Source: Sphingomonas sp. HMP9 (GTDB taxonomy: Bacteria; Pseudomonadota; Alphaproteobacteria; Sphingomonadales; Sphingomonadaceae). Taken from it: 64,000 nt of DNA. Positions within the stretch are counted from its first letter, which is position 1. Each line of letters begins with the position of its first letter. Shown one piece after another: positions 10,053 to 46,544 of the stretch. The position numbers and the translations under genes are program-made. The stretch is from the NCBI RefSeq assembly GCF_013374115.1, contig NZ_AP022673.1, forward strand, positions 2,136,501 through 2,200,500. Reading direction: 5' to 3'. A model generated the notes under the pieces. The model worked only from the letters and a program-made list of their open reading frames with translations, searched no databases and had not been told where the DNA came from.

Positions 10053-10127
<75 letters not shown>

Positions 10128-10535
10128 GTTTTCAATGACTTAGCGTCGGCGGGCCGAGTGCCCGCCGACTCTGGCAAGCACCCAGCAAGCCACTATCCAT
10201 GCCCGCGTCGGCTTTCCCAGCTATCGCGATCGGGATGAAGCGCGGCTGGAACGGGACAAGCTGCCCAGAAGCGACCGTCCAACACCACAGATCGCCAGCG
10301 CTTTAGGTAGGTGCGATAGACGGCAGACATCGGCTTTCTACGTTCGGAAGCCGGCGACGCCCAGATCGACCTTGGTGCACCAAGGACCGGGCGGTTCCGG
10401 GTTGGCCGTCGGATGAGCGTGGCGTCATGGAAACGATCGAGATCGATGAAGGATCAGACTTTCAGCCTGCCCCGATGGCGGACTCGAATGTACCGTCAAC
10501 TGAATGATAGACGGTTCGGATCCGTCGGGCCGAAC
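10128..10535. other. 408-bp junction between tRNA-Thr and the island; no supported gene
   Basis: No frame here looks coding. Short open stretches exist (for example 10427-10507, 26 codons) but lack a recognisable family or a good ribosome site. There is no integrase and no second copy of the tRNA 3' end that I can see in this stretch. It probably consists of decayed sequence at the island edge. Confidence 0.5.
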
Positions 10536-29833: not shown

Positions 29834-30889
29834 TCAGATGTCGATTTCCAACGCCCCGTCGGGATCGCCGTAGACGGTGGTGAAGTCGTGCTCGAGCTTC
29901 AAAGCGTCGGCATCCCACGGACCGCTCCATTTCGTCCGGTAGTTGAAGTAGAGCGTCTTCTCTCCGGATGAATATGCAAGCAGCCTCGCGATCGCCTCGG
30001 GATCCGGATGACCGTGCCGCTTGCCGTTGGTCGAGATCACGAAGCGCCGGCAATCGAGTAGCTTGATAAACGCCCGTGTGGTGTTGCCCTTGCTGCCATG
30101 ATGCGAGACCTTCAGCAGGTCTATGGGCAGCCGGCCTCCAGCCGCCTCCGCGAGCGGCTGTATCGACGAGACCAGAAGGTCCGGATGGGCGTCTCCGGCG
30201 AACAGTGCCCGGCGGCCTTGCCATTCCGCGATGAACGCGATGCTGGAGCCGTCTGGCGGTTCCGAGTCCTCAGGGGTGGCGGAAGCTAGTTTGGCAACAT
30301 CGAGCACAGTCGGCATTTCGCCGCCTCCCAACGACTGAAGCCCGGCTGGCGCCGCTTCGCGGGCCGCTATCCGAGCCGCCTCGGCAGTTCGCCAGGAGGA
30401 CCACTTGCGTCGCAAGGCTGCGATCTTCGCCAGATCGGGGGAGAGGATCGTGATCTTGAGCCCTTCGAGGTCGAATGGCTTCGGGCTTGTTTCGACGGAC
30501 ACGGTCCCACTGTCGAATCCGGAATTCAGAGTCCACTCGCGCTCGCCGATCAGTCGCGAATATTCATCTCCCTGGGCGAAGCCGAACGGCTGGATGCCCG
30601 CCATCTGGTCGTATCCGTTGTACCAGACGTGCTTGGGCCGCAACGGCTGTGCGTCGTCATTGGCGATCTTGAGGACGCCGTCGATGTGATCGGCGTCGAT
30701 ATGCGTCAGGACCAGTAGTTCCACCTCGCCCTTGTCGCCCGCTACAGCTTTGAAGCGCTTCTTGAGATGCGCGTAGGCGCTGGCCCGGCCACCATCGATC
30801 ACCACGTGTCGGCAGTTCCCGTCGACTCCGAACGTGAGGAGCAGACAATCTCCGTCCATAGCCGGCAGTACGGAAAGATGAAAGGTCAC
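29834..30889 (-). CDS. Metallo-beta-lactamase-fold hydrolase (ComEC-MBL-like, 351 aa)
   Basis: MBL metal motifs are visible: LTHIDADHIDG (HxDxDH type), LFAGDAHPD (bridging Asp region) and SHHGSKGN, as in the nuclease-like MBL domains related to ComEC. A strand-rich start, VTFHLSVLPAMDGDCLLLTF, is typical. The GTG start overlaps the upstream stop by 4 bp (GTGA), and the same GTGACC context is kept in the remnant at 24500. It is cytosolic, with no signal or membrane segment. The likely substrate is a phosphodiester (nucleic acid or nucleotide signal); this follows from the subfamily only. It is the third gene of the caspase cassette. Confidence 0.85.
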   Translation of the reverse strand: MTFHLSVLPAMDGDCLLLTFGVDGNCRHVVIDGGRASAYAHLKKRFKAVAGDKGEVELLVLTHIDADHIDGVLKIANDDAQPLRPKHVWYNGYDQMAGIQPFGFAQGDEYSRLIGEREWTLNSGFDSGTVSVETSPKPFDLEGLKITILSPDLAKIAALRRKWSSWRTAEAARIAAREAAPAGLQSLGGGEMPTVLDVAKLASATPEDSEPPDGSSIAFIAEWQGRRALFAGDAHPDLLVSSIQPLAEAAGGRLPIDLLKVSHHGSKGNTTRAFIKLLDCRRFVISTNGKRHGHPDPEAIARLLAYSSGEKTLYFNYRTKWSGPWDADALKLEHDFTTVYGDPDGALEIDI

Positions 30890-32361
30890 TGCTTCGCCTC
30901 TGGATAACGCAGTACGGTGAACATCTGCTTCGGGTCGCACCGCGCCGCTATGGGACCCACATCGTTCAGCAGAGTTGCGGCACGCGGATGGTCAGTCGCG
31001 AGGATCTCAAGCATCTCGCGCATCAGCAGAAGCCCTGCGCTGTAGTACGGCACCCCCGCCTCGTATGCCTGCTCCAACGCGGCCATGATCAACGCACCGT
31101 CTTCCGCGGCACCTGGGCGAAGGATCATGTGTCGCGCGTTCACGATCGCGCAGTCCGGCAACCACGGGAACAGCCGGACGATGTCCGGGAGCCATGCGGT
31201 CCAACGGTCCTGTTCATCCGGGTCGCTCACGGCCAAACCGACATAGGCTGCGGCACACGCGGCAAGAGGGTTCGCCATCCTACCGTAGATCCTGCGCTCG
31301 ATGGAGCCATTCCGTTCCAGAGCCGCGATCATGGGGCGGAGCGCCGCCAGACGGCCGCGGTCGAAGTAGGTTAGTAACCCGTCGAACTCGGCGTCGTGGA
31401 TCGCCACGGAGGTGCTCGCGCGACCGGTCAGTCTGGCATCCACGAGGATGTCGACCGGCGAAAAGCCCCCGTCGACACGACGCCAGGGTGCGGGAATCGA
31501 CACGGCCTCCAACCCTTTGGCCCCACGCACCAGACCCCACACACGCGTCCCGGCGGCATCCCCGCGAACGACGTCCGGCGCTAGCCGCCAGATGGACGCA
31601 CCTGGCTGGACCTCGTCCGCGTCTGGCGCCAACCAGGTCTTTCCTCCCGAACTCCAACTCGAGGGTCCGTCCGAAAGTATTCGCCAGCTGTTCATGCCGT
31701 CGAACGTGCCTTTCGGCGCGAGGCCCAACCCGACCGGACGTTCAGTTGTCCGTCCGGTACGCGGCGCCTTCCTGTCCTCTGCGCGCTTCTTCGCCAGGTC
31801 GGAAGTTCTGGAGTGGCTGCTTCCCACTCGGGCAGCGACGGTTTGTTGAGGCCGGAGACCGCCAGCCGCGAACCGCGCCGTCCGCGAACCCACGCGTCCG
31901 CCGACCGCGCCTCGACTGGTTACGGTCGAAGGGACGGTTTTACTCGCGGCGACCCGCCCGTTCGAAGTCGTTCTGGGAAGCGAAATCGTCGCTTCCGATC
32001 GGGGCCGATCACTGACCGCCTCCTCCAATATGTCTGCGAGTGACACCACACCCGATGCCGCCTGCAGACTGAAACCGGCGAAACCGGCCGAGGGCTCCTG
32101 GAAAGTCAGCGGGACGCTGGCTCCCGCTTCCATCTCGAATGCCTGCTGCAACACGCGCCCGGATGCGAGAAAGAGCTGAACGTTGTAACTGCCGGCTTGA
32201 AGGGGGACCTTGAGACCCTCTCCGCTTGAAGGAACGATCAGATCAAGCGCCGACATGTCCGCGCCGTGCGGCGCGAGTCGTTCTATCCGGGCCACGACGT
32301 CGTACGGGTTCGTTCCGCCTCCCTCCCCGAGTATCCTGAGGCTCAACGATCCGTCGATCAT
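30886..32361 (-). CDS. Unknown caspase-cassette protein (491 aa)
   Basis: The first 130 residues look like a beta-sandwich (LDLIVPSSGEGLKVPLQAGS, then NVQLFLASGRVLQQAF). Residues 125-205 are a low-complexity Ser/Thr/Arg linker. The C-terminal 280 residues start with a beta-rich part and end in helical repeats (EDGALIMAALEQAYEAGVPY). It overlaps the caspase stop and the MBL start by 4 bp each, so the three are made together. I do not recognise the family. A truncated homologue tail survives at 24522-24646, so this gene travels with the MBL gene. A scaffold or substrate for the protease is a possible role. Confidence 0.75.
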   Translation of the reverse strand: MIDGSLSLRILGEGGGTNPYDVVARIERLAPHGADMSALDLIVPSSGEGLKVPLQAGSYNVQLFLASGRVLQQAFEMEAGASVPLTFQEPSAGFAGFSLQAASGVVSLADILEEAVSDRPRSEATISLPRTTSNGRVAASKTVPSTVTSRGAVGGRVGSRTARFAAGGLRPQQTVAARVGSSHSRTSDLAKKRAEDRKAPRTGRTTERPVGLGLAPKGTFDGMNSWRILSDGPSSWSSGGKTWLAPDADEVQPGASIWRLAPDVVRGDAAGTRVWGLVRGAKGLEAVSIPAPWRRVDGGFSPVDILVDARLTGRASTSVAIHDAEFDGLLTYFDRGRLAALRPMIAALERNGSIERRIYGRMANPLAACAAAYVGLAVSDPDEQDRWTAWLPDIVRLFPWLPDCAIVNARHMILRPGAAEDGALIMAALEQAYEAGVPYYSAGLLLMREMLEILATDHPRAATLLNDVGPIAARCDPKQMFTVLRYPEAKQ

Positions 32362-33563
32362 GGCAGTCTCCTCGTAATCGAGAGGTCGAACGGCACTTCG
32401 GGCGGAAACACCATGGTGGTGCCATTGCCCTCGGTGAAGGGGGCATCGTCGCCGAAGATGGCGTGAAAGCTGTATTTGTCCGGGTCCAACAGGATCTCCA
32501 TCTCCCGGGCATCGGGCTTGCTACCCGGGTCATGTTCATGGGACCGCGCATCGCCACCGTCGCGCTGGGTCGTGAGGGTGAACTTCGATCCCCATGCCTC
32601 CAACGGGTTGCAGGTGAGGTAGACGGGGACCTGTACGCGCGCCGGCTTATGGATCTTGAACCGGCCCGACTTGATCCTATCCGGCTCCTGCTCGACACCC
32701 GCCGCCTTTGCCAGGCGTGCGGTGTAGGTGCCCAATGCGGTCTGCAACCCGTCCGTCCCGACCCACATGTCGAGATCGCGTTGCGCGCCGCCGCCGCTCA
32801 GAGCGCGAAGAAGCGCCTCGGCGTACAGGCTGAGACCGTTGACCCGTCCCCAGCTTTTCGCGAGGTCGGAAGTCGCGAGATGGATGCTCTGACGTGCTGG
32901 CGTCCCACCACGAGCCTTGATGCTCGAACCATTGAGTACGCGTCTCCCCACTCCGCCAAGCTGCGTCGTCATGTCGACGACGGAGTCCGACGTCCGACAA
33001 GCGTCGACCAGAAAGATCTGATACTCCGGGATCTTCGTCGCCATGGCGGCGTGGAACTTCTCGAAGTTCACCGATTGATCAAACGGGTCCTCCGTGACGG
33101 CCCCGAAATCGCGGCAGAGAAGGGTCTGCGTGCCGGAAAGCACGCCGTGACCGCAAAAGTAGAAGATCGTCTGGCTTTCCTCTGAGCTGGACGCGCGGGA
33201 TAGCCACGCCCGGATCGCAGCCAGTACGGTCTCGGTGCTTCCGTCCGGCAGGTCCGCGTTCGGAATGGTGGCCGCCGCATGCTCATACCGGTACGGCTCC
33301 GGCGTGGATACGACCATGGCAAGGCTGGCAAGGGGACGCTCGTCATTCACGAAGTTGCCGTCGAGAAACCAATCTGCCAACGCCTTCACCGACTGCGGCG
33401 GCGCGTCTAGCTGCTCCATGCCGTCGGCAAGCTCGAGCTTCTCCTTCACACCGTCGATCAGGTGATCGTACTCGCCTATGCCGATGAGCAGGACATGCGT
33501 TCCTGGACCTTCGCGATCAGATGCGAAGATCAGTGCCGGATCCGCTTCATGGATCTCAAGCAA
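32358..33563 (-). CDS. Caspase-like (C14, metacaspase-type) cysteine protease
   Basis: The protein is 401 residues. The caspase fold is clear in the N-terminal half: strand VLLIGIGEYD, then the catalytic His139 in TIFYFCGHGVL and catalytic Cys189 in QIFLVDACRTSD. This is the HG / DxCR pattern of bacterial C14 peptidases, which cut after basic or acidic residues and are known effectors in prokaryotic immunity. The C-terminal 150 residues are beta-rich and unrecognised. The start is a TTG at 33561-33563; no nearby ATG fits, so the true start is uncertain. Its stop overlaps the next gene by 4 bp. Confidence 0.85.
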   Translation of the reverse strand: MLEIHEADPALIFASDREGPGTHVLLIGIGEYDHLIDGVKEKLELADGMEQLDAPPQSVKALADWFLDGNFVNDERPLASLAMVVSTPEPYRYEHAAATIPNADLPDGSTETVLAAIRAWLSRASSSEESQTIFYFCGHGVLSGTQTLLCRDFGAVTEDPFDQSVNFEKFHAAMATKIPEYQIFLVDACRTSDSVVDMTTQLGGVGRRVLNGSSIKARGGTPARQSIHLATSDLAKSWGRVNGLSLYAEALLRALSGGGAQRDLDMWVGTDGLQTALGTYTARLAKAAGVEQEPDRIKSGRFKIHKPARVQVPVYLTCNPLEAWGSKFTLTTQRDGGDARSHEHDPGSKPDAREMEILLDPDKYSFHAIFGDDAPFTEGNGTTMVFPPEVPFDLSITRRLP

Positions 33564-33762
33564 GACGTGTGGTCCAGAATCTTGGAACGGTGCACAAGGA
33601 TTTCCCGGGTTTCGCCCCTTCGACGCTCAACGCGCCAGGATCGGCCGGTCGCTTTACAGGTGGCAATGCAGGAACTCCGCGCCGTGGATCATTGATCGGC
33701 GCAACCGTTTCGGAACGTGGCGTGGCAGGTGCGTGTCATGGGATGACACGGTCGGCGCGGCG

Positions 33763-34715
33763 CTAACTAAAATCCAAGGTGCCAGCGACGGAGGCGACGA
33801 CCCGGGACACCTCCGAGAAGTTGCGTTGATCCAGTTGCTCGCGAAATGCGTCCATCAACTCGCGCAGAACTTCGTGCTGAGCCTCCTCGCGGACCTTCTC
33901 GACGTTGACGCTCACGCCGAGCTTTCGAACGGCCCGGGTCTTCGTATCGAGCAGCCGGTTCTCCAACGACCTGAGTTGCGACGCGTTCTCCATGTCCGCG
34001 TACTTGAAGGCTCGGCTCACTCGCCGCTGGAGCTTGGTCACGTCGGTGGAGACGAGCAGAAGATTGTCGGTATCGACCTTCGGCGCGCTCGTCAGCGTCT
34101 TCGCGCGATCTTCGATGTCCTTGGCATCCTTAGCCAGACGTCGGATCGAATGCTGCGAGGCTTTGGAAATCTCGTAGGCCCGTTTTCCCAACTCATCGCA
34201 CCACTCGATGATCTCGGTCTTCAGCGTCTCCCAGTTGACGTCCTCCTCGAAACCGTCGCGGCGGGAGTTGGGTATGACGAAGGTCGGATCGACGAAGATC
34301 TCCCCCACGTACCAGTCGTTGAACCGACCATAGGACTTTGCGTCGGGAACCTGGGAAAACAGCTCGCCCATGATTTGGGTGCCGTCGATCTGGATGTTCC
34401 TGACCCTGACCCGGATCGCCCGCGTGCTGTCGTTCTTGAATGCCCCGGGCTCGCGCTTGAGACCGACCCAGCCCCACCACTTCCCACTCTCGCCATCCTT
34501 GATGTCGATGTCATTCAGTGTGACGTCATCGCGCCCCACTGTGTATTCCGCACCGTACGATTTGCGGACCTCCACCACCCGGTCACCGGAATGCACGTCG
34601 ATCCGGACTTCCTCCAAGCCCCCCGTCTGTGCCGTGACGGCAACATGTTTACCGATGTTTCGGCTTTTGGCCGCCTTCTCGATCTGCCCCTTGAAGGTGA
34701 AATCGTCGGCGTAGG
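33763..34715 (-). pseudogene. C-terminal half of an HSP90-like (GHKL) ATPase, 5' end removed at IS21
   Basis: The remaining 316 or so residues match the middle and C-terminal parts of the ATPase at 41856: both have WxVGEI/V, then a PN-x-RRD-x-FE motif (here FVIPNSRRDGFEED). A long coiled coil follows (residues after ASQHSIRRLAKDAKDIEDRA). The N-terminal ATP-binding Bergerat fold is missing because the sequence runs straight into the IS21 end at 34716. It lies 200 bp upstream of the caspase gene on the same strand, so it was probably the first gene of that cassette. It is non-functional as an ATPase. Confidence 0.75.
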
Positions 34716-34826
34716 TGTTGATTTCCACTGAGAGCTGACCCGGAGAAGGCATAAATTTCCACCGAGAAGTGACCCGTGTCTCAACCTCACCCCGGCAGGC
34801 TGTCGGGGGATCAAGGAGTGATAGAC

Positions 34827-36350
34827 ATGGCGTTACTGAGCGTGATCCGGCGCTGGGCATTCCGGGACGGGATGTCGATCAGGGAGATAACCCGACGTAC
34901 GGGGCTGTCGCGTAACACGATCCGCAAATACCTGCGGTCGGACGCGGTGGAGCCGAAGTTCGAAGTGGTCGACCGGCCGAGCAAGTTGGATCCGTTCGCC
35001 GACCGGCTATCGGGATGGTTGAAGACGGAAGCTGGCAAATCGCGCAAGCAACGGCGTACGGGCAAGCAGATCCATACCGACCTGGTCGTGCTGGGCTATG
35101 ACGGGTCCTACAGTCGGGTAGCGGCCTTCATCCGGGCGTGGAAGGCCGACCGTCAGGTCCAGGAGCAGACGACGGGCCGGGGCACGTTCGTGCCGCTGGT
35201 GTTCATGCCCGGCGAAGCCTTTCAATTCGACTGGAGCGAGGACTGGGCCATCCTGGGCGGCGAACGGGTGAAGCTGCAGGCAGCGCACACCAAGCTGTCG
35301 CACAGCCGGGCGTTCATCGTGCGAGCGTATCCGCTCCAGACCCACGAGATGCTGTTCGATGCGCACCAGCATGCCTTTCGGGTGCTGGGCGGAGTGCCGC
35401 GGCGCGGGATCTACGACAACATGAAGACCGCGGTCGACCGTATCGGCACGGGCAAGGCGCGGCAGGTCAACGCGCGGTTCGCGGCGATGGCGAGCCACTA
35501 TTTGTTCGAACCCGAATTCTGCAATCCGGCATCGGGCTGGGAGAAAGGTCAGGTTGAGAAGAACGTCCAGGATGCGCGTCGCCGGCTGTGGCAGCGACTG
35601 CCCGAACTTTCCGACATTGCTGCGCTCAACGCATGGCTGGAAGAGCAGTGTATCGCACAGTGGGCACAGATTCCGCACGGCAACCTTCCCGGCACCGTTG
35701 CCGAGGTATGGGCGCAAGAAGTGGCGGACCTGATGAAACCGGGGCGCCCGTTTGATGGCTTCGTCGAACATACCAAGCGGGTATCGCCGACCTGCCTCGT
35801 GCATTTCGACCGCAACCGTTACAGCGTCCCGGCTTCCTTCGCGAACCGGCCGGTGAGCCTGCGGATCTACCCTGAGCGCATCGTCGTGGTCGCGGAAGGG
35901 CGCAGGGTGTGCGAGCACGCCCGGGTGATCGACCGGGCGCACAGCTCGCCAGGACGGACTATCTACGACTGGCGCCATTATCTGGCGGTGGTTCAGCGCA
36001 AGCCGGGTGCCATGCGAAATGGTGCGCCCTTTACCGAATTGCCCGACGCCTTTCGGAAATTGCGCGAGCGATTGCTCAAGCACGCGGGCGGCGACCGGGA
36101 GATGGTCGATATCCTGGCACTGGTGCTCCAGCACGACGAACAAGCGGTGCTGTGCGCGGTCGAACTAGCGCTCGAGGCCGGCGTCGCCACTAAAACCCAC
36201 ATTCTCAACATCCTGCATCGGCTGGTCGACGGCAAGACCGCCAGCGTCACGCCCATCGATGCCCCACAGGCGCTCGTCCTGCGACGTGAACCCCAAGCCG
36301 ATGTCGGCCGCTACGACACGCTTATGAAGGAGGTGCGCCATGCGTCATGA
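34827..36350 (+). CDS. istA: IS21 transposase IstA
   Basis: The 507-residue protein has an N-terminal HTH ([20 protein letters not shown]) and an RNase H-like DDE core: FQFDWSEDW (first Asp), [11 protein letters not shown] (second Asp) and [12 protein letters not shown] (Glu). The C-terminal domain is the usual beta-barrel ([14 protein letters not shown]). The ATG at 34827 is chosen over upstream starts because AAGGAG precedes it by 8 bp. It is intact and overlaps istB by 11 bp. Confidence 0.94.
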
Positions 36351-37119
36351 TCCCGCCAGCGCCGCGGTCGTTGTCATGCTGCGCGATCTTCGCATGTACG
36401 GCATGGCCCAGGCCGTAGGCGACCTCATCGAACAAGGCGCGCCTGCCTTCGATGCGGCCGTTCCCATCCTGTCTCAGCTGCTCAAGGCCGAGATGGCGGA
36501 GCGCGAAGTCAGATCCATCGCCTACCAGATCAAGGCTGCAAAGCTGCCGGCGTACAAGGATCTGACCGGCTTCGATTTTACCTCCGCCGAAGTCGACGAG
36601 ACCATGGTTCGCCAACTCCATCAGGGCGATTTCATCGACGGCGCCGATAACGTCGTCCTGATTGGTGGCCCCGGCACCGGCAAGACGCACATCGCTACCG
36701 CGCTCGCTGTGCAGGCCATCGAGCACCGGCGCCGGAAGGTCCGGTTTTTTGCCACCGTCGACCTGGTCAACGCGCTCGAGCAGGAGAAAGCCATGAACAA
36801 GGCCGGGCAGCTCGCCGAGCGCCTGCTTCGCCTCGATCTCGTCGTCCTCGACGAGCTGGGCTACCTGCCGTTCAGTTCCTCGGGCGGCGCCATGCTGTTC
36901 CACCTGCTCAGCAAACTCTACGAGCAGACCAGCGTCATCATCACCACGAACCTCAGCTTCAGCGAATGGGCCGGCGTCTTCGGCGACGCCAAGATGACAA
37001 CCGCGCTCCTCGACCGCCTTACCCACCATTGCCACATCGTCGAGACCGGCAACGACAGCTTCCGGTTCCGCGTCCGGTCCGAGGCCGACAAACCGAAAAA
37101 GGACAAAGCCTCACCTTGA
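36340..37119 (+). CDS. istB: IS21 helper ATPase IstB
   Basis: The 259-residue AAA+ ATPase assists IstA in target choice. Walker A is GGPGTGKTH near residue 108, and Walker B is [13 protein letters not shown] DnaC-like sensor ([10 protein letters not shown]) and C-terminal [14 protein letters not shown] complete the family pattern. The ATG overlaps the end of istA. Full length and intact. Confidence 0.94.
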
Positions 37120-37207
37120 CCCGCAACCCCGCGGGCATGACATGAACCCTTCGACGCGGGTCACTTCTCGATGAAAACTCCGGGTCAACTCTCAGTGAAA
37201 ATCAACA

Positions 37208-38075
37208 GAACGATCTCTGGCGGGACGAAACCAAGCGGGCGGCGTTCGAGACGAAGCTCGCGGGAGTGTTTGAACGTATTGCGTCATTCACGGTCCGCGA
37301 GACCAAGGCGACGGCCGGGATCCAGCTGCCTGACAAGATCATCGAGAACGTGGCGGTCGAACTCGAACCGCGGCAGGCGGCGCTCTACGCGGATTTCCGT
37401 GATCGGACCCGAGCCGAAGTCCTGACCGAAGACGGTCTGGTCGAGGACGATGCGGAGGCGATCCTCAAACGTCTCCTTCGACTGGTGCAGGTGGCGTCCA
37501 ACCCACGACTTGTCGATGCGGGGTACGAAGAGGCGCCCGGCAAGTTGTCCGTCCTCGACCGCATCGTGGACACCGCCGTCGCGGAGGGATCGAAGGTCAT
37601 CGTCTGGACCAGCTTCGTCGCCAACGCGACCGCGCTGGCCGTGCATCTCGGTCGCCATGCCGCCGTCCTCGTTCACGGATCGCTGGACATGGAGGCGCGC
37701 AACCAGGCAGTCGCCTCGTTCAAGACCGATCCTAGGGTGAAGATCCTCGTCGCGACCCCAGGTGCGGCGAAGGAGGGGCTCACGCTGACCGTCGCGAACC
37801 ATGCCGTGTTCTACGACAGGTCCTTCAGCCTCGACGACTACCTTCAGGCACAGGACCGCATCCACCGCATCTCGCAGACCCAGACCTGCAAGGTCTGGAA
37901 CCTCGTGGGCACTGGAACCGTCGACGAGTGGGTGGACTCGCTGCTCGCGGCCAAAAGGCTCGCCGCGCAGGTTGTGCAATCGGATATTAACGCCGCGCAG
38001 TACAACTCGCTGGCGGACTACGATTTTGGCAAGCTCGTAGGGCAGATACTCGGCGCGGGAAATCATGAGCAGTAG
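37208..38075 (+). pseudogene. SNF2-family helicase, C-terminal lobe only
   Basis: The fragment runs from the IS21 end to TAG-type stop at 38075, about 288 codons. It begins at the linker between lobes (LPDKIIENVAVELEPRQAAL). It keeps the second RecA lobe: KVIVWTSFVANATALAVHL, LVHGSLDMEARN and the motif V/VI block ILVATPGAAKEGLTL to QDRIHRISQT. The first lobe with Walker A and B is gone. SNF2 enzymes translocate on double-stranded DNA; this one cannot. Its end overlaps the ParB-like gene by 11 bp, so it was the first gene of that operon. Confidence 0.85.
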
Positions 38076-39060
38076 TTCACATAGCGGCGTCATCACCCTC
38101 CGCGGCAACGACATACCGACCGTCACCCGGGACATCGAGCAGTCGAAGCTCCGCTTCTATGCCGACAACCCCCGCATATATTCGCTCGTGCGGTCCGATG
38201 GACATGAGCCCGACCAGCAGCTCATTCTCGAGAAGCTGTTGGAGCACGATCACGTTCACGTGCTCAAGGATGACATAGTCGCCAACGGGGGGCTGATCGA
38301 TCCTCTGATCGTACGTGATGGGGACATGGTGGTTCTGGAGGGCAACAGTCGTCTGGCGGCCTACCGCCATCTGGCTGGCAAGGAGCCGATACGCTGGGGT
38401 CGCGTCCGATGCACCGTGCTCCCGGCGGACATGGACGAGCAGCTGATCTTCACCCTGCTCGGCCAGTATCACGTCAAGGGAAAGACCGACTGGGCACCGT
38501 TCGAGAAGGCGGGCTTCATTCACCGGCGGATCACGGAGCAGGCCCTGGAGATTGACGCGGTGGCGGAGGATCTCAGCATACGCAAATCGGAAGCCGAGCA
38601 GCTCGTTCGGGTGTTCCGGTTCATGCTCGACAAGAAGGTCGCCGCTCGTGATCACTGGAGCTATTTCGACGAGTATCTTAAGAGCCGCAAGATTTCCAAG
38701 GCCCGCGAACTCCACCCTGAGCTGGACGACGTTTTCGTGTCGCACGTCGATGCAGGCGTCATCCCCCGCGCGATAGAGGTACGTACCAAGCTCGCCGTCA
38801 TCTGCGGCGGCAACCCCAAGAACCTCAAACGCTATGTCCAGGGCATCGTCGGGTTCGAGGACGCGTACGAGACCGCGTCCGTGGCGGGCGGCGACAACGT
38901 GTCGTTGGCGAAGCTGCGACGTTTCCGCCAGTGGATCGTCCAGAACGACAGCGAGGACGACATGCGCGAGGCGACCAAGGCGGTCCGCGACAAGATGCGG
39001 TTCGAACTCAAGGAGATCGAACGGCGCACCAAGAAGCTGAAAGAGTTGCTGGGTGGCTAG
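38065..39060 (+). CDS. ParB/Srx-domain protein (331 aa)
   Basis: A ParB N-terminal domain spans about residues 20-150. NGGLIDPLIVRDGDMVVLEG followed by NSRLAAYRHL is the conserved strand plus the ParB box EGNSR (92-96), which binds CTP in chromosomal ParB. A helical region with a probable HTH (SIRKSEAEQLVRVFRFML) follows, then a long charged C-terminal helix (ERRTKKLKELLGG). No partitioning partner ParA is nearby, so a role in plasmid segregation is unlikely. It is the second gene of an operon with SNF2, DGQHR, radical SAM and HSP90-like genes; ParB-like proteins of this type occur in DNA-modification and restriction clusters. Confidence 0.85.
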   Translation: MSSSSHSGVITLRGNDIPTVTRDIEQSKLRFYADNPRIYSLVRSDGHEPDQQLILEKLLEHDHVHVLKDDIVANGGLIDPLIVRDGDMVVLEGNSRLAAYRHLAGKEPIRWGRVRCTVLPADMDEQLIFTLLGQYHVKGKTDWAPFEKAGFIHRRITEQALEIDAVAEDLSIRKSEAEQLVRVFRFMLDKKVAARDHWSYFDEYLKSRKISKARELHPELDDVFVSHVDAGVIPRAIEVRTKLAVICGGNPKNLKRYVQGIVGFEDAYETASVAGGDNVSLAKLRRFRQWIVQNDSEDDMREATKAVRDKMRFELKEIERRTKKLKELLGG

Positions 39061-39176
39061 ACAGCGGCGCTCCCCGACCCGCCGAGCCGATGCATTTTTG
39101 CCATTGACCGCGATTTAGAAATCGATCTTGCCGACCTGGTCTGCTAACGGCACATTTCACTGCGGAATCTGCAGCG

Positions 39177-40217
39177 GTGGAATGCAACTTGGCGAGGCGG
39201 ATGATGCACAGGCTGGAATGCCATATCGGTCGATCGGCCAATCGGAGGGTTCTTCTGGGGTTTGCCTCGTCGCGCCTCCTGAAGTCGCTCAGCTGGGCCG
39301 ACATTCTCGACGAGGAGGCCGGCCGGGGTTACCAACGTCGGTTCAATTCGGCCCACAGCCTTGATTTTCGCCGGTACATCCAGACGCCGGGAAGCGCGAC
39401 GATTCCGCTGACGTTCAATCTGCGGCCATCCGAGACGCTGGGGTGGCGCATAGTCGAGCATGATGGCCGGAACGCCGTGCTGGAGATCGATCCCGCCGCC
39501 GGCCGGGTGCTGTCCCAGGTCGACTGCCAGCATCGTCTCGGCCATCTCGGCGAATGCGACGTCGAACTGCCCTTCATGTGCTTCGAGGGCCTGAGCGTCG
39601 TCGAGGAGACCCAGATCTTCGGCGTCATCAACGGCAAGGCCAAGGGCCTGAGCAAGAGCCTCCTGGACTATCAGGATGCGCAGATGTGCAGCGATCTCGC
39701 TTCGGAGAGACCCGAATTGTTCATTGCCCTGTGCCTGACCAACGATGCTGCATCGCCATGGTTCAGAGCGCTCGATTTCGGGGGATCGTCGACGTCGGGA
39801 CTGACGCGGCGCGCTTCTCTCCGGACGATGCAGAAGGCTGCCCGCAGGTTTCTCACCCGATCCGACATACTGCGCAAGGTTCCGGCCGAGACCGCGGCGC
39901 GGCTGGTCATCGACTTCTGGGTCGCGGTGTCGGTGGTGCTGCGCGAGGCCTGGTCGAAACCGCGCACCCACCTCGTGAGCAAGGGGGTTGGCGTGTATGC
40001 GCTCATGGACCTTGCCGGCGATCTGATCGCGGAGGCCGGCGCCAGCGCCAACCGGGACTATTTCATGGCGGAGTTGTCCGACTTCGCGGACGGCTTCGAC
40101 TGGTCATCGTCGGGATCGTTCGCCGGGCTGGGCGGTGAGAAGGGAGCGGCGACTGCCGCACTCCTGCTGCGCGACGCAAGAAGGAAGAGCAAGATGAAGT
40201 TGGTGCAGAATGGCTAA
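39177..40217 (+). CDS. DGQHR-domain (DndB-like) protein
   Basis: The protein (346 residues from GTG 39177; 338 from ATG 39201) carries the hallmark motif of the DGQHR superfamily, here as VDCQHRLGHLG with Cys in place of Gly (Asp116 to Arg120). Before it are GRGYQRRFNSAHSLDFRRYI and IPLTFNLRPSE, a typical layout for the family. DndB, the best-known member, regulates DNA phosphorothioation genes; other members appear in DNA-modification clusters. The C-terminal half is helical. The stop lies inside the radical SAM gene start (8-bp overlap). The start is uncertain: neither candidate has a strong ribosome site. Confidence 0.82.
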   Translation: MECNLARRMMHRLECHIGRSANRRVLLGFASSRLLKSLSWADILDEEAGRGYQRRFNSAHSLDFRRYIQTPGSATIPLTFNLRPSETLGWRIVEHDGRNAVLEIDPAAGRVLSQVDCQHRLGHLGECDVELPFMCFEGLSVVEETQIFGVINGKAKGLSKSLLDYQDAQMCSDLASERPELFIALCLTNDAASPWFRALDFGGSSTSGLTRRASLRTMQKAARRFLTRSDILRKVPAETAARLVIDFWVAVSVVLREAWSKPRTHLVSKGVGVYALMDLAGDLIAEAGASANRDYFMAELSDFADGFDWSSSGSFAGLGGEKGAATAALLLRDARRKSKMKLVQNG

Positions 40218-41859
40218 CAAGCGCATCCTGCTGATCGAGCCCGGGTACAAGAACAAGTACCCTCCCCTGGGCCTCATGAAGATCGCACAGTACCACGGCC
40301 CCGACGGCAAGAACGATAACATCACCTTCGTGAAGGGTGAGGATCCGTCCGTCATGTCGCAGGCGTGGGACCGCATCTACGTGACCACGCTGTTCTCGTT
40401 CGAATACCCGAAGATCGCGACGAGCATCGACTACGCGTTGAAGGTCGCGAACGGCCAGGCGGACAAGGTCTTTGTCGGCGGCATCGCCGCGTCCCTGATG
40501 CACGAACGCTTCCTCAAGGAGCGCCGCTGGCAGGGTGTCAGGTTCATCAAGGGTCTGCTGAGCCAGCCGCCCGCGGTATCGCTTCAGCTCGATGACTTCG
40601 CCGAGGAGCTCTACTCCGACGACGTGACGGGTCGACCGATCGAGGACATGGTGCCAGACTACAGCATCCTGGACCAGATCGAGTACAAGTACCCCGTCCG
40701 CGATGCGTATTTCGCGTACACGTCACGCGGCTGCATTCGGAAATGCCACTTCTGCGGCGTGCCGAAGCTCGAGGGCATGCAGCGTGACGTGGAGTCGCTG
40801 AGCGATCTCGTCCGCGCGATCGACGACAAGTACGGTCCGAAGAAGGACCTCATCCTCATGGACAACAACGTCGTCGCCAGCGCGCGGTTCAAGGATATCA
40901 TCGCCGAGATACGCGACCTCGGCTTCGTGCCGGGCGCCAAGCTGCTTCGGCCGGGGTCGCGGGTACCCGTGCAGCGCCGCGTGGACTTCAATCAGGGCGT
41001 CGACGCACGCATCCTCTGCAAGGATCCGATGTACCTGAAGGAGCTGTCGTCCATCTGCCTGAAGCCGCTGCGGATCGCGTTCGACCATCTCGGGGTGAAG
41101 AAGCCCTACGAGAAGGCGGTCAGATACGCCCACGACCATGGGCTGAACGAGTTGTCCAACTACATGCTGTACAACTTCCATGACGGCCCCGACGATCTGT
41201 TCGAGCGAATGCGACTGAACGTCACGCTGAACGAGGAGCTCGGTGTGAGGATCTGGTCTTTCCCCATGCGGTATCAGCCGACCGATCGGCCGGACCGGGG
41301 GCACATCGGCGAGAAGTGGTCGAGGTACCAGCTTCGATCGATGCAGATCATCCTGCAGGCGACCCACGGCATCGTCAGCGGCGAGCCCAGCTTCTTCAAG
41401 CAGGCCTTCGGGAACACGGCGGCGGACTACGAGCGAATCCTGATGCTACCCCACGATTTCATCTTCAACCGTCATTGGTACGAACGCTTCGGCGGGCAGG
41501 AGGAGCTTGCCCAGTACCGCAGCGCCATGGCCAAACTCGACGAGCATGGTTGCAGGGAGCTGCTCGCCCTTCTCTCATCGACCGATCCGCGTCATTTCCA
41601 CACGCTGGGCAATTTCGCGACGACGGCTGCGGTCCGCCGTGTGCTGCCATTCTACATTCCCAAGCCGAAGGACGAACTCTTCGACATCTGGGCCAGGCAG
41701 AAGGCCCTCACGCGCGGCGAGATCACGGCCGACCAGACCCTTCCAGAGGACGAAAGGGTCGAGGATGCCGGTCTGGACTACGAGGATGAGGCCGTGCTCG
41801 CCACGATGTTCGATGCCGCACCGCAGCGGATTGCCCTTGCGCACCAGGTGGCCGCATGA
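40210..41859 (+). CDS. Radical SAM protein with B12-binding-like N-terminal domain
   Basis: The 549-residue enzyme starts with a Rossmann-like domain (RILLIEPGYKNKYPPLGLMK), the pattern of B12-dependent radical SAM proteins. I find no DxHxxG cobalamin motif, so B12 binding is doubtful. The radical SAM core has the iron-sulfur motif SRGCIRKCHFC (Cys175, Cys179, Cys182). About 200 C-terminal residues are unrecognised. Such enzymes transfer sulfur or methyl groups or rearrange bases; the substrate here is unknown, but neighbours point to DNA. It overlaps the DGQHR gene by 8 bp and the next gene by 4 bp. Confidence 0.88.
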   Translation: MANKRILLIEPGYKNKYPPLGLMKIAQYHGPDGKNDNITFVKGEDPSVMSQAWDRIYVTTLFSFEYPKIATSIDYALKVANGQADKVFVGGIAASLMHERFLKERRWQGVRFIKGLLSQPPAVSLQLDDFAEELYSDDVTGRPIEDMVPDYSILDQIEYKYPVRDAYFAYTSRGCIRKCHFCGVPKLEGMQRDVESLSDLVRAIDDKYGPKKDLILMDNNVVASARFKDIIAEIRDLGFVPGAKLLRPGSRVPVQRRVDFNQGVDARILCKDPMYLKELSSICLKPLRIAFDHLGVKKPYEKAVRYAHDHGLNELSNYMLYNFHDGPDDLFERMRLNVTLNEELGVRIWSFPMRYQPTDRPDRGHIGEKWSRYQLRSMQIILQATHGIVSGEPSFFKQAFGNTAADYERILMLPHDFIFNRHWYERFGGQEELAQYRSAMAKLDEHGCRELLALLSSTDPRHFHTLGNFATTAAVRRVLPFYIPKPKDELFDIWARQKALTRGEITADQTLPEDERVEDAGLDYEDEAVLATMFDAAPQRIALAHQVAA

Positions 41860-43400
41860 GCGTGTCTCAGGTCAAGATCAGGCAGACCGAGGACGATGCA
41901 CCGCAGGGCGCGCCCGCGGTGGTCGGCAAGGATCTGCTGGAGCTGATATCCAGCGCGATGTACGTCGAGCCGCTGACCGTGTTCCGCGAGTACGTGCAGA
42001 ACGCGGCGGACTCGATCGACGACGCCCGAGCCGCAGGCGTTCTTGGCGACGCTGACGCCGGGACCGTCGAGATCCAGTTGGAACCGGGGGCACGATCCAT
42101 CCGGATCCGTGACAACGGCATGGGAATACCGGCTGATCAGTTCGAGGGACGCATGCGTGCCATCGGGGCCAGCACGAAGCGCGGCTCGATGGCCCGCGGG
42201 TTCCGCGGTGTCGGCCGTCTTGGCGGTCTGGCATACGCACAGCGCCTGATCTTCCGGTCACGTTCGACACCCGAAGAGCCGGTGAGGGAGATGATCTGGG
42301 ACTGTCGCCGTCTGCGGACCGGCATCAAGAGCCAGAGCGTCGTGGGTCTCGGCGACTTCGTCACCGAGATCACATCCGTCACGAATGCGTCGGGTGATTT
42401 CCCGCCCCGGTTCTTCGAGGTCGAACTTGCGGGCGTGGTGCGACAGGGTGACGATCGCCTTCTGCGGGCCGAAACCGTCGCCGACTATCTCGCTCAGGTC
42501 ACGCCGGTGCCATTCGCCGAGGAGTTCTCGCTGGGTCGTGACATCGAGGCCTTCCTCGCGCCCCACCGTTCCACGCCTCCGCTGACGATAACGGTCAACG
42601 ACGGCGCTCCGCTCCGACGTCCCTACCGGGACGACACTCCGGCCGGTTTGAGATCCGACATCCGTCTGCGGGAGCTGTCCACCTTCGAGATACCCGGGAT
42701 GGACGGTGGACTTGCCGCGCTCGGCTGGGTGGCACATCACGATTATGATGGCGCCATCCCGTCGGCGGCGCGGATCAAGGGCCTGCGGGCCCGCGTTGGA
42801 GACCTTCAGATCGGCGGTTCGTCTCTGCTGGAGGAGATCTTCCCCGAAGCTCGGTTCAGTTCGTGGACGGTCGGCGAAGTCCACGTGCTCGATCCGAAGA
42901 TCCTCCCCAACGGCCGCCGCGACAACTTCGAGCAGAACGGCCATTATGCGAACTTGTTGAACCATCTCTCCCCGGTCGCCCGGGACATAGCGAGGAGGTG
43001 CCGCTCGAGTTCGGCTGATCGTCAACGCACGCGCGCGTTCGAGACCCAGGCCGCCGCCGTGGACGAGCAGCTCGACGTTCTGGAACAGGGCGCTCTGGGC
43101 GACCAGGCACTCGTCGAACTCTCGGCGACGCTGGAGAAGGCGGTGGCGAGGGTCGAGAGGACGGCCCTCGCGGCTGACATGCACCATCCCGCGAGCGAGA
43201 CGATGCGCGAGCGCAGCGTTCGCCAGCGCGAGCGGCTGGTGGCGATCTGCGGCACCGAACAACCGCCCTCGCCCCTTGATCGCCTGCCCGACGAGAGGCG
43301 TGCCATCTACCAGGAGATGATCGACCTCATCTACCAGTGTTCGGTCAATCGGATCGCGGCGAAGTCGCTGGTTGATAGGATACTGGAAAAGCTCGATTGA
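41856..43400 (+). CDS. HSP90-like (GHKL) ATPase (514 aa)
   Basis: The Bergerat ATP site is complete: FREYVQNAADSIDDA (Glu45, Asn49), IRDNGMGIP (Asp86) and GFRGVGRLGG (115-124). A middle domain follows with the PN-x-RRD-x-FE motif (ILPNGRRDNFEQ). The C-terminal 150 residues are a coiled coil. It resembles the HSP90/HtpG group but is shorter and belongs to the accessory type found in conflict systems. The ATG overlaps the radical SAM stop (ATGA). A truncated paralogue lies at 33763-34715. It is the last gene of the plus-strand operon. Confidence 0.88.
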   Translation: MSVSQVKIRQTEDDAPQGAPAVVGKDLLELISSAMYVEPLTVFREYVQNAADSIDDARAAGVLGDADAGTVEIQLEPGARSIRIRDNGMGIPADQFEGRMRAIGASTKRGSMARGFRGVGRLGGLAYAQRLIFRSRSTPEEPVREMIWDCRRLRTGIKSQSVVGLGDFVTEITSVTNASGDFPPRFFEVELAGVVRQGDDRLLRAETVADYLAQVTPVPFAEEFSLGRDIEAFLAPHRSTPPLTITVNDGAPLRRPYRDDTPAGLRSDIRLRELSTFEIPGMDGGLAALGWVAHHDYDGAIPSAARIKGLRARVGDLQIGGSSLLEEIFPEARFSSWTVGEVHVLDPKILPNGRRDNFEQNGHYANLLNHLSPVARDIARRCRSSSADRQRTRAFETQAAAVDEQLDVLEQGALGDQALVELSATLEKAVARVERTALAADMHHPASETMRERSVRQRERLVAICGTEQPPSPLDRLPDERRAIYQEMIDLIYQCSVNRIAAKSLVDRILEKLD

Positions 43401-43572
43401 GATACGCGGACGGGATCGGTGTCGCACTCCGCGTGGTTCCGACCGCGTTCGCCTCGGGGGCAGGCACACTGTAGAAGGGAAGACGTTCCGGCTGCCCTCG
43501 ATGGATCCGGCTCGTGGTCGGTAGCGCCGCCGAACGTCGGATACCGCGAGCAGTCGCCATCTGCGTCACCGA

Positions 43573-45302
43573 TTAGCGACGATTGTGCTTCTTCCGTTCG
43601 CGACCGACCCATTTGGCGAGCTCGATACGCGCTCTGCGAAGGCCAGCCGCGTCTTTGCAGATCGCCCAAGGAGACATTCCAAGCGCGGCGTCGTGATACT
43701 TCATGAACGATTTCGCGGTGGCCTGATCCAGCCCCTTCTCGGCATCGGCCAGGAGTTGTTGCCGATAGCCGGTCGCAAGTCTGTCCGCGGCAGCAGCCGC
43801 CGCGAGCGCGAAGTGATGAACGTCGACGACGCGGAGAGCCTCGGTCAGGCCGGCTGCGCCGTCGCGTGCCAGTTGGGTCGGCGCGCGGCCCGCCGCGCCC
43901 GACGTGGTGGCCCATGCCGGTCCATCCGTCCCCAGCAATGCGGTGGCCGAACGGGTGATGGACGCCTCGCGTTCTGCTGCCTCGCGCTCCTTCTCTTGCG
44001 CTACGCGGTGTCCTGCTCGAGCGAGCTCGCCTTGAAGGGGCAGACCCAGCGTCTGGCGGACCCAGGTTCCACCTTCGACCATGCCGCGGATCGCCGACAG
44101 GGCGGTTTCGAACGGTTCCCAGGTCGACTTGTCGCTCTCGATCAGCTCTTCGAGAGTGAGATCGAAGCCTGGAATGGGTGCTGTCCGCCATGATGCGAGA
44201 GAGAACTCGCCGTGCTCCTCGACTGGGACGGAGTCCACGATCACGTCGATCGTGGACTCCGACGAGCGGCGGCGACGGTCCTTGATCTGCCATGCAGCAT
44301 GGGCATTCTCGACCGCCGCAATCCGGTCCTTCGGAAGCGTGAACATGCCGAACCGGTCGGACCGCAGCACATCGTGATCGCAGAGATGGTCGAGGAAGGA
44401 CCGTACGGCGTTCTTCGGTAGATCGAGGCTGCGCAGTTCCAGGGGCAGCGCGGCCCGTACGTCGAGCGCCAGAGCTTCAGGCATGTCCGCGGCGACGCAG
44501 TCATCGATGCTTCTCAGTACGCTCGACACGTCGAACTCCGGCAGTTCGAATTCGTCGACGGGAACTTCGATCATCCGCTCGATGATCGCGGCCTGCCAGT
44601 GCTCGTTGACGACGGTGAACCCCATGGCGTTCTGGTCCTCCACCAGAAGACCCAGCAGTCCCCGCTTGGCGATCGCGTCGTGGTCGCCGGTTGCGGCAAC
44701 ACCTGTTTGAATGCCTGCGACGATCTGGACGATCAGATCGGCGTCATCCTCGCGTCTGCGCCGTGCCTGCGCCTCGCGCAGCCTATCTGCAGCCTCCGCC
44801 CGGGCCTGCGCCTCGACCGCCTTCTTCGCCGCGCTCGCCGCCCGTTCCGCGATCGTGGTTGCGAGACGTGCCTGGGCCTCGTCCGCCTTTCGGTTGAAGA
44901 GCCACTCGCGCGGCGCGCCCTTCACGAGCGCCTGTTCGATTTCGTGCCTGTCGCTGCTTTTGCGCCATCTGAAAAGGTCTATCTCAAGGGTCGCGAGCCC
45001 TCTGTCACGCAGCTTGGCGATCTTTTCCGGACCGCAGGCATGCGTCACCATCACCTCTACCAGCACCTGCCTGCCATCCTCCGTCGTGAGGATCACGTCC
45101 GGGACGATGTCACCGAGGCCCTTCTCGAGTTCGGCATGGTCGAACTGGAACATGCGTTCCCTGTAGGTCTGGAGAACGTCCTCGCCGGCGGACGCGAGGA
45201 CCGCGGGAAGCAGGATCAGTTTCTCGCGGTTCAAGACGTCCTTCGCCCAGATGTGCGCATTGGTTTCGGCGTTGTTCCCGCAACCACTTGCGTTCCTCGC
45301 CG
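43573..45302 (-). pseudogene. CoiA-like nuclease-domain protein, 5' end removed by IS4
   Basis: About 575 native residues remain. Near the start is a PD-(D/E)XK core like that of CoiA: AETNAHIWAKDVL (helix), GLGDIVPDVILTTEDGRQ (Asp), then VLVEVMVTH (Glu-X-X, with Met where Lys is usual). A charged coiled coil follows (residues rich in EAQARAEAADRLREAQ), then helical domains. The frame continues into IS4 sequence upstream, so the native N-terminus, where CoiA proteins carry a zinc finger, is lost. It faces the HSP90-like ATPase gene tail to tail, 172 bp apart, and may have belonged to the same system. A partner function in DNA uptake is not implied. Confidence 0.6.
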
Positions 45303-46544
45303 ATCCCCTCATTTTCCGGATGACGTAGGGCGAGAATGGTGATTCTGTTTTCCCGGTTGGAATGGGGAACAGACGTTCATGAATGGCCAGGCGGCGTTTT
45401 CTTCTGATGGGGTTCATTCGTTTGTCGCTGAACTTTTTGGTGAGGATCTGCACGCGAAGCGGGTGACATCGCTTGCAAATGCGACGGTCGGCACGCTGCG
45501 TGCGTCGTCGCTGGCGGTCAGTGCCATCGGGCACGGGCTCGCGCTGGCACAGGGTGGGCTATCGCGTCACGCGATCAAGCAGGTGGACCGGTTGCTGTCG
45601 AATGACGGGATCGATGTCGATGCGCTGATGGCCGGGTGGGTTGTGTATTGCCTTGGCAGTCGCACACAGATCGTCGTCGCGATGGACTGGACCGAGTTCG
45701 ATGCCGACGGTCACTCGACCTTGATGGTGTCGTTGCTCACCGAGCATGGCCGGGCGACACCGTTGTTATGGCTGACAGTGAGCAAAGCGGAGCTAAAGGA
45801 GAGGCGCAACTACTATGAATACTGGGTCGTCACCCGCCTTGCCGAACTCCTGCCGAGCGCGGTGAAGGTGCTTCTGGTCGCAGACCGCGGCTTTGGCGAT
45901 ACCAAGCTGTACGCGGTGCTCCGCGATGAGTTGCGCTTCGATTACGTCATCCGATTTCGCGGCAACATCAAAGTGACGGCCGCAGGCCAGAGCCGTCCGG
46001 CGAAGGAATGGGTCGGCCCCTCGGGGCGCGCCAGGCTGCTGCGCGAGGCGACCGTCACTGCGCAGGACTGCCCGGTCGGGGCTGTGTTGTGCGTGCATGC
46101 CAAGGACATGAAAGAGCCATGGTGCCTTGCCACAAGCCTGATCACGGCGTCGGCAAAGACCCTGATCGACCTCTATTCCCGACGCTGGGGCATCGAGTGC
46201 TCGTTTCGGGATGCCAAAGACTGGCGGTTCGGGATGGGAATGTCGGCAACCCGTATCTCAACGCCAGCCCGGCGCGACAGGCTGTGGTTGATCGCCGCTC
46301 TTGCTATCGTGCTGCTGACCGTGCTCGGAGCCGCAGGCGAAGCCATCGGCTACGACCGGCATCTGCGAACCAGCACGACCAAGCGACGCGTGCACTCCCT
46401 GTTCCGGCAAGGCGTGATGTACTATCAACTGATGCCCACCATGCCCGACGTACGACTACGCCCCCTCATCAGCCGGTTCGAACACCTTATCCAGAAGCAA
46501 CAGATCCTCAAAAAAACCTTCGGGCTAATCTGAAATGAGGGGAT
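45303..46544 (+). mobile_element. IS4-family insertion sequence
   Basis: The element is bounded by ATCCCCTCATTT at 45303-45314 and its exact inverse AAATGAGGGGAT at 46533-46544. It contains one intact transposase whose stop lies inside the right repeat. The outer flanks show no direct repeat and are unrelated (a CoiA-like gene on the left, an IS66 fragment on the right), so the locus was rearranged after insertion. Confidence 0.85.
45379..46533 (+). CDS. IS4-family transposase
   Basis: The 384-residue DDE enzyme has AMDWTEFDADGH (first Asp), LLVADRGFGDTKLY (second Asp) and the IS4 signature YSRRWGIECSFRDAK with the catalytic Glu in the Y-x2-R-x3-E-x6-K pattern. Length and frame are complete. 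It probably remains able to move the element. Confidence 0.93.
   Translation: MNGQAAFSSDGVHSFVAELFGEDLHAKRVTSLANATVGTLRASSLAVSAIGHGLALAQGGLSRHAIKQVDRLLSNDGIDVDALMAGWVVYCLGSRTQIVVAMDWTEFDADGHSTLMVSLLTEHGRATPLLWLTVSKAELKERRNYYEYWVVTRLAELLPSAVKVLLVADRGFGDTKLYAVLRDELRFDYVIRFRGNIKVTAAGQSRPAKEWVGPSGRARLLREATVTAQDCPVGAVLCVHAKDMKEPWCLATSLITASAKTLIDLYSRRWGIECSFRDAKDWRFGMGMSATRISTPARRDRLWLIAALAIVLLTVLGAAGEAIGYDRHLRTSTTKRRVHSLFRQGVMYYQLMPTMPDVRLRPLISRFEHLIQKQQILKKTFGLI

Follow-up and report, generated by a model that had tools for sequence, protein, structure and literature searches.

A radical SAM core with exchangeable nuclease modules in Sphingomonas sp. HMP9: a decayed copy of a candidate restriction-modification-like system

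Ideas related to the one developed here already exist, namely the DndB-type proteins of the Dnd and Dpd systems and the GHKL ATPases of restriction-modification (R-M) systems. One paper (PMC2292703) describes the GHKL (MORC/paraMORC) R-M systems as sporadic, laterally moving operons, in which a GHKL ATPase is combined with SNF2-type helicases and nucleases. Here, we analyzed a 64,000-nucleotide stretch of the Sphingomonas sp. HMP9 genome (contig NZ_AP022673.1, positions 2,136,501 to 2,200,500; hereafter the window), in which a radical SAM (rSAM) protein is encoded beside an Hsp90-like ATPase (HATP1) and a DCQHR-type member of the DGQHR/DndB family. The locus had been flagged as a candidate DNA-modification or conflict system (the original prediction). 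On balance, we lean towards regarding it as a decayed copy, with its nuclease arms gone, of a modular, horizontally moving system that is R-M-like and whose presumed mark is on DNA.

The rSAM core and its exchangeable modules

A profile search of genome contigs with an rSAM alignment gave 146 relatives, the best 80 of which were taken; adding 7 loci from plasmids and 13 from viral contigs gave a set of 100, which were annotated with profiles made from the member families. The HATP1 gene immediately follows the rSAM gene in 94 of the 100 loci and lies upstream of it in 3, and in one of the three loci without this adjacency the contig ends there. The DCQHR gene is present in 48 loci, and the D-C-QHR motif is found in 47 of these relatives. 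The gene set of the original prediction thus recurs across loci, contrary to the possibility it had allowed for, that the genes never co-occur elsewhere. One proposed member, a CoiA-like gene, does not belong to the set: none of the other 100 rSAM loci has a match to its protein (E ≤ 1e-3).

In the window, the three core genes lie on the plus strand. The DCQHR gene (39177-40217) encodes an NTPase-fold protein whose DGQHR domain is indicated by a match to TIGR03187 (E 7.7e-32; 111.1 bits versus a cut-off of 58.85), and the DndB-type Pfam match in the window is below the cut-off (24.5 versus 29.1 bits). It overlaps by 8 bp the rSAM gene (40210-41859), the product of which has the CxxxCxxC motif and the barrel of the radical SAM superfamily, an N-terminal B12-binding-like Rossmann domain and a profile match to phrog_9298 (E 1.1e-38). 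HATP1 (41856-43400), which overlaps the rSAM gene by 4 bp, is a Bergerat-type ATPase (HATPase_c_3, 34.9 bits versus a cut-off of 25) closest to Hsp90/HtpG (HtpG E 1.2e-11, profile A3), and its Foldseek matches, among those listed, are to the Hsp90 family throughout. The median pairwise identities are 0.63 for the rSAM, 0.54 for DCQHR, 0.40 for HATP1, 0.30 for the nuclease and 0.22 for the PIN protein; the core is far more conserved than the effectors.

The modules around the core comprise a cassette of ParB-A, a small PD-(D/E)XK nuclease, an SNF2 translocase and ParB-B (the SNF2 cassette, 51 of the 100 loci); a nuclease-DGQHR fusion (19 loci); a PIN protein with a second Hsp90-like ATPase, HATP2 (PIN in 30 loci); and HerA types. 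When loci flanked on either side by 8 kb or more were collapsed at 85% rSAM identity, 36 of 37 had at least one nuclease or translocase module, as did 50 of 51 after collapsing at 95%. The cassette occurs alone in 50 loci, the fusion alone in 18, both in 1 and neither in 31, with an exclusivity p value of 4e-5 for the raw data (62 loci, 8 kb flanks) and 0.0006 when loci sharing 95% rSAM identity are collapsed. Strict exclusivity was rejected as a rule, not being significant once the loci were collapsed at 85%. The D, EAK and Q of the motif P-D...E-A-K...Q are invariant in 19 cassette nucleases, and this conserved motif suggests a PD-(D/E)XK enzyme; the protein matched no Pfam family, and a solved-structure search returned nothing credible. 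In Roseomonas mucosa, the PIN-ATPase pair is located ~88 kb away from the core.

The linkage of these modules to the rSAM was evaluated in 72,556 plasmid records. Close rSAM, DCQHR and HATP1 queries recovered the same 12 records with high coverage, corresponding to about 8 independent plasmids by strain name and identity; beyond these, the rSAM query gave 5 weak records, and 15 Providencia records matched through DGQHR only, at 27%. Seven of the 12 carry the SNF2 cassette and five the fusion, and none carries both. All of the plasmid records matched by ParB-A (7/7), ParB-B (7/7) and the small nuclease (6/6) fall among the 12, as do all five fusion matches at 97% coverage or more; the fusion query gave 31 further matches, to the DGQHR part only. 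The PIN query found all 12 and 6 weaker records. Among viral contigs scanned with ParB-B, SNF2 and ParB-A, all nine with the SNF2 cassette carry an rSAM, including two missed from the rSAM side and one without a recognised ParB-B, and 19 contigs with a generic SNF2 match only have neither ParB nor rSAM. One contig (L128) encodes a divergent rSAM that also belongs to phrog_9298 and whose gene overlaps ParB-A by 4 bp. In these plasmids and viral contigs, the SNF2 cassette with its nuclease occurs only with an rSAM partner (7/7 plasmids, 9/9 viral contigs); the window departs from this pattern, as its nuclease is missing.

The rSAM set is carried on plasmids, prophage-like contigs and genomic islands. 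The record titles among the best 80 of 146 name Alpha- and Gammaproteobacteria, Acidobacteriota, Verrucomicrobia, Gemmatimonadetes, Nitrospirae, Dehalococcoidia and Acidimicrobiia, many of these records being metagenome-assembled genomes in which contig assignment can be wrong. Among 385 genomes of the class, the rSAM profile matched four, and two, including HMP9 itself, were accepted; the other two matches covered 64-69 residues (E ~3e-4) and were taken as generic, and one match was a partial gene. ParB-B matched six of the 385, five of them weakly and without an rSAM in the short loci. Intact copies are present in Novosphingobium aromaticivorans DSM 12444 (plasmid pNL1) and Rhizobium leguminosarum WSM1325.

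Some further arrangements recur beside the core. A HerA/ATPase/TcmP-like/DUF5131 module adjoins it in four loci (L036, L047, L063, L087) and partly in five others (L015, L043, L067, L074, L081), and the HerA of this module has its nearest match in the HerA part of DndH. Distant or variant rSAMs adjoin HerA and a NurA-like gene in L049, L088, L098, L099 and Marinitoga camini virus 1 (L130), where the two genes are annotated as HerA and a Rad50/Mre11-associated exonuclease. The labels TcmP, NurA-like and F16 are tentative, in part assigned by eye, and Pfam gave no supporting family for any of them. A second DndB-family gene with a 275 aa partner is found beside the core in L033, L034, L041 and L087.

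Partners of the nuclease-DGQHR fusion and the role of the rSAM

A viral scan with the nuclease-DGQHR fusion recovered at least 31 loci, including seven near full-length matches (28-34% identity). All seven of these contigs (L175-L181) have an adjacent D12-class DNA N6-adenine methyltransferase above the Pfam cut-off, partial in L181, and no rSAM was recognised in them. When an rSAM-linked fusion was compared with a methyltransferase-linked one, the two shared ~32% identity over 710 residues. A motif scan of the 100 rSAM loci and the window detected neither a D12-type nor a C5-type methyltransferase frame, and found three other N6-type motif frames in the flanks. The displacement in seven of seven contigs indicates that the same restriction-type protein pairs with either a DNA methyltransferase or the rSAM core. 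By this comparison, the rSAM core appears to occupy the position of a DNA modification enzyme beside the fusion, and it is mainly because of this alternative pairing that a DNA-marking role is favoured. Because L175 and L176 seem closely related, the independent cases of displacement may number six. The DNA-modification reading of the original prediction is thus favoured by the distant fusion relatives, and DNA as the substrate is what we infer from them. As an observation in its own right, L175-L181 apparently encode a two-gene pair of D12 methyltransferase and nuclease-DGQHR protein, a candidate R-M system.

In the proposed mechanism, the core would use radical chemistry to mark host DNA, and HATP1 and the DCQHR protein would serve as loading or gating subunits driven by ATP/NTP. 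The ParB-fold pair would bind unmarked DNA, which the SNF2 translocase and the small PD-(D/E)XK nuclease would pump and cut; the nuclease-DGQHR fusion would be an alternative cutter of unmarked DNA, and PIN with HATP2 a second effector, perhaps suicidal. The fuller version, an R-M-like immunity in which a dedicated rSAM writes the DNA mark, an Hsp90-type ATPase handles the rSAM and one writer serves unrelated reader-nucleases, in several phyla and on mobile elements, is put forward tentatively. If true, the DNA of the hosts bears a modification that may escape present methylome reading, an Hsp90-type ATPase would have a defined in vivo role in DNA marking, and one conserved writer would explain several uncharacterised ParB, DGQHR, PIN and HerA gene families nearby.

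Several observations weigh against the R-M-like reading. Of the at least 31 viral loci, 24 match the DGQHR part only, and the partner check covered the other seven. The fusion in the rSAM loci has E-C-T and the two methyltransferase-linked fusions read have E-C-K; because of this replacement, the nuclease in the rSAM loci may be altered. Neither accessory core protein is obligatory, since the DCQHR gene is not in 52 of the 100 loci and HATP1 is not in L128, where no Hsp90-like gene was recognised within its 16.8 kb. Collapsed at 85% rSAM identity, the exclusivity of the cassette and the fusion has p values of 0.09 when all flanks are used and 0.28 for the loci with 8 kb flanks. Classical methyltransferases diverge in specificity, and the uniformly high conservation of the rSAM is unlike that. 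Finally, enzymes of proteins and of small molecules are among the structures whose folds come near that of the rSAM.

The modelled Rossmann domain of the rSAM resembles those of the B12 enzymes MgmA and TsrM and also that of AprD4, which is not known to contain B12. The original prediction had pointed to rSAM enzymes that install sulfur or methyl groups. Methylthiotransferases such as MiaB and RimO need the cysteines of a second, auxiliary Fe-S cluster in the N-terminal domain. Across 26 rSAM sequences, the invariant cysteines number three, all within one CxxxCxxC motif, and no auxiliary cluster cysteines are visible, so sulfur insertion of the MiaB/RimO kind is less likely. Viperin (5vsl) is among the fold matches of the rSAM model, which might suggest an rSAM that has free nucleotides as its substrate or produces an antiviral small molecule, with the HATP proteins sensing infection and the nucleases as parallel effectors; the PIN-HATP2 pair and the HerA modules indeed resemble effector units able to stand apart. 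We consider this unlikely, as viperin has a Z of 9.4 and the better matches are AprD4 (15.8), MgmA (15.3) and MiaB/RimO (14-15), and the appearance of the rSAM in the methyltransferase position beside the fusion would be left unexplained.

The presence of RimO and MgmA among the nearest folds is also compatible with an rSAM that modifies a protein, such as a ParB, SNF2 or nuclease subunit, presented as a client by HATP1, whose Hsp90 fold is a client-handling one. The nuclease modules are, however, mutually unrelated, which makes a single fixed protein target hard to name, and the rSAM is the most conserved part; we regard this explanation as improbable. A close rSAM homologue with a known non-DNA role would have countered the original prediction, but none emerged: the matches to solved-structure sequences were weak, the best being RimO at E 0.001. 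A repair or replication-fork module of mobile elements, in which the rSAM reverses a lesion like spore photoproduct lyase and HerA-NurA-like or SNF2-nuclease units process ends, would suit the HerA and putative NurA-like genes beside distant rSAMs (L098, L099, Marinitoga camini virus 1) but is very unlikely given the patchy occurrence (two convincing cases, HMP9 included, in the 385 class genomes), the exchangeable nucleases and the defence-type neighbours.

The locus in the window and its damage

The window genes across 32361-46530 were scanned against Pfam, PADLOC and NCBIfam. An IS21-family insertion sequence (34716-37207; istA 34776-36350, istB 36340-37119) with inverted repeats at both ends, one of seven copies at 100% identity in this genome, separates two gene fragments. 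To its right, only the C-terminal part of the cassette's SNF2 translocase gene is present (37208..38075, plus strand; Helicase_C E 1.2e-15), which had been taken for a whole gene; it is cut by IS21 and covers 59% of the profile. It overlaps by 11 bp the ParB-fold gene ParB-B (38065-39060, plus strand), identified by the ParB_B profile as the last gene of the cassette and belonging to a family with an invariant EGNxRLA motif. To the left, outside the span of 37208..45302 covered by the original prediction, is a C-terminal fragment of HATP2 (33766..34715, minus strand; profile coverage 0.58), the partner of the PIN protein in relatives. The minus frame at 33763-34860 shares 69.8% identity with the ATP-binding protein encoded next to PIN on pNL1. 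The fragments flanking IS21 thus belong, in relatives, to two modules, the ParB-A/nuclease/SNF2/ParB-B cassette and the PIN/ATPase pair.

No target-site duplication was seen at the IS21 ends (34716/37207), and for this reason one deletion at IS21 is the simplest account of the damage. The N-terminal parts of HATP2 and SNF2 would have been lost with it, together with the whole PIN, ParB-A and small nuclease genes; the ancestral locus would have had these five genes in the order HATP2, PIN, ParB-A, small nuclease, SNF2. ParB-A and the small nuclease are absent from the window locus. In searches of the HMP9 genome, which had no positive control, the PIN and fusion queries gave no match and the ParB-A query matched ParB-B only. 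That the effectors are the parts lost in this copy was counted in favour of the R-M-like reading, and the remainder may be inactive or may persist as an orphan marking core.

The reading frames and the overlaps of 11, 8 and 4 bp in the original prediction are correct for the SNF2, ParB, DGQHR, rSAM and HSP90-like genes, but the single five-gene operon does not hold. ParB-B and the DGQHR gene are separated by 116 bases, and in 18 of the 51 relatives with the SNF2 cassette, cassette and rSAM are on opposite strands; because of both, the cassette and the rSAM core are better regarded as two units rather than one operon.

The CoiA-family-like gene (43573-45534, minus strand, with a later in-frame ATG at 45312) faces the core. 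Its protein gave 20 plasmid matches, none on the 12 close-rSAM plasmids; one of the matched replicons, the M. extorquens AM1 megaplasmid, has a weak rSAM match only (28.6% identity, 39% coverage). The N-terminal part matches proteins from unrelated plasmids that bear the annotation competence protein CoiA family.

As for the surroundings, the 3' part of tRNA-Thr(ggt) (window 10053-10135) recurs at 95% about 110 kb downstream (G000:C1:2257038-2257092), so the locus may sit in a tRNA-Thr-integrated island of ~110 kb. The minus-strand region at 29834-33563 encodes a caspase-like protein (Peptidase_C14) and a 491 aa protein, with a 4 bp overlap, together with a metallo-beta-lactamase-fold protein that matches the LmuA (E 2.1e-67) and Avs1a models; because of these matches beside the caspase-like gene, the region is probably another defence system. 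In a Mesorhizobium plasmid (L004, 25312-29737), a CBASS-type set with a DncV-like nucleotidyltransferase, patatin, ThiF and Mov34 lies ~5 kb from the rSAM system. Scanning of flanking frames (100 of 275) gave matches to the models for a Type IIG enzyme, AbiEii, an Argonaute-associated nuclease, UzuA, ShosA and HEC-05 in single members and to phage integrase in seven; the scan had no control set, and no enrichment of defence genes is claimed.

Comparison with known systems

PADLOC (2023) scans at thresholds of 0.1 and 0.01 returned no model naming the rSAM, the small nuclease or the PIN protein, and searches of open-licence PMC papers found no description of this gene set. Plain Dnd, Dpd, DISARM and Zorya were considered and rejected, the similarity being to generic SNF2 or DGQHR only. 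The original prediction had called the locus neither a plain Dnd nor a plain Dpd system, in agreement with our scan of the window genes, in which no DndC, DndD, DndE or DpdA was detected.

The set shares a DGQHR/DndB-family protein with Dnd (DndABCDE-FGH), and a HerA variant present in some loci matches DndH in its C-terminal HerA part (E 2.2e-47). Unlike Dnd, it has no DndC/D/E among the window genes, and the rSAM is not DndC. Dpd is approached by the matches to DpdB-like DGQHR (E 5.3e-10) and DpdE-like SNF2 (E 3.2e-21), which are far below the curated NCBIfam cut-offs (35 of 300 bits and 27 of 500 bits), and the Dpd TGT enzyme, DpdA, has no counterpart among the same genes. The phage rSAM proteins of phrog_9298 belong by profile to the family of the core rSAM, but those in the phage records examined are ~305-360 aa long and, as annotated, lack an SNF2 cassette. 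The viral pair in L175-L181 shares a homologous fusion, with a DNA adenine methyltransferase in the place of the rSAM core. In the GHKL R-M systems, as in the present set, an ATPase is found with SNF2 and nucleases (PMC2292703). Those systems carry DNA methylases, and the word radical does not occur in that paper (Iyer, Abhiman, Aravind 2008; PMC2292703), whereas the ATPase here is closest to Hsp90/HtpG and an rSAM stands instead of the methylase. A radical SAM writer, if this is what the core encodes, would make the system a new class.

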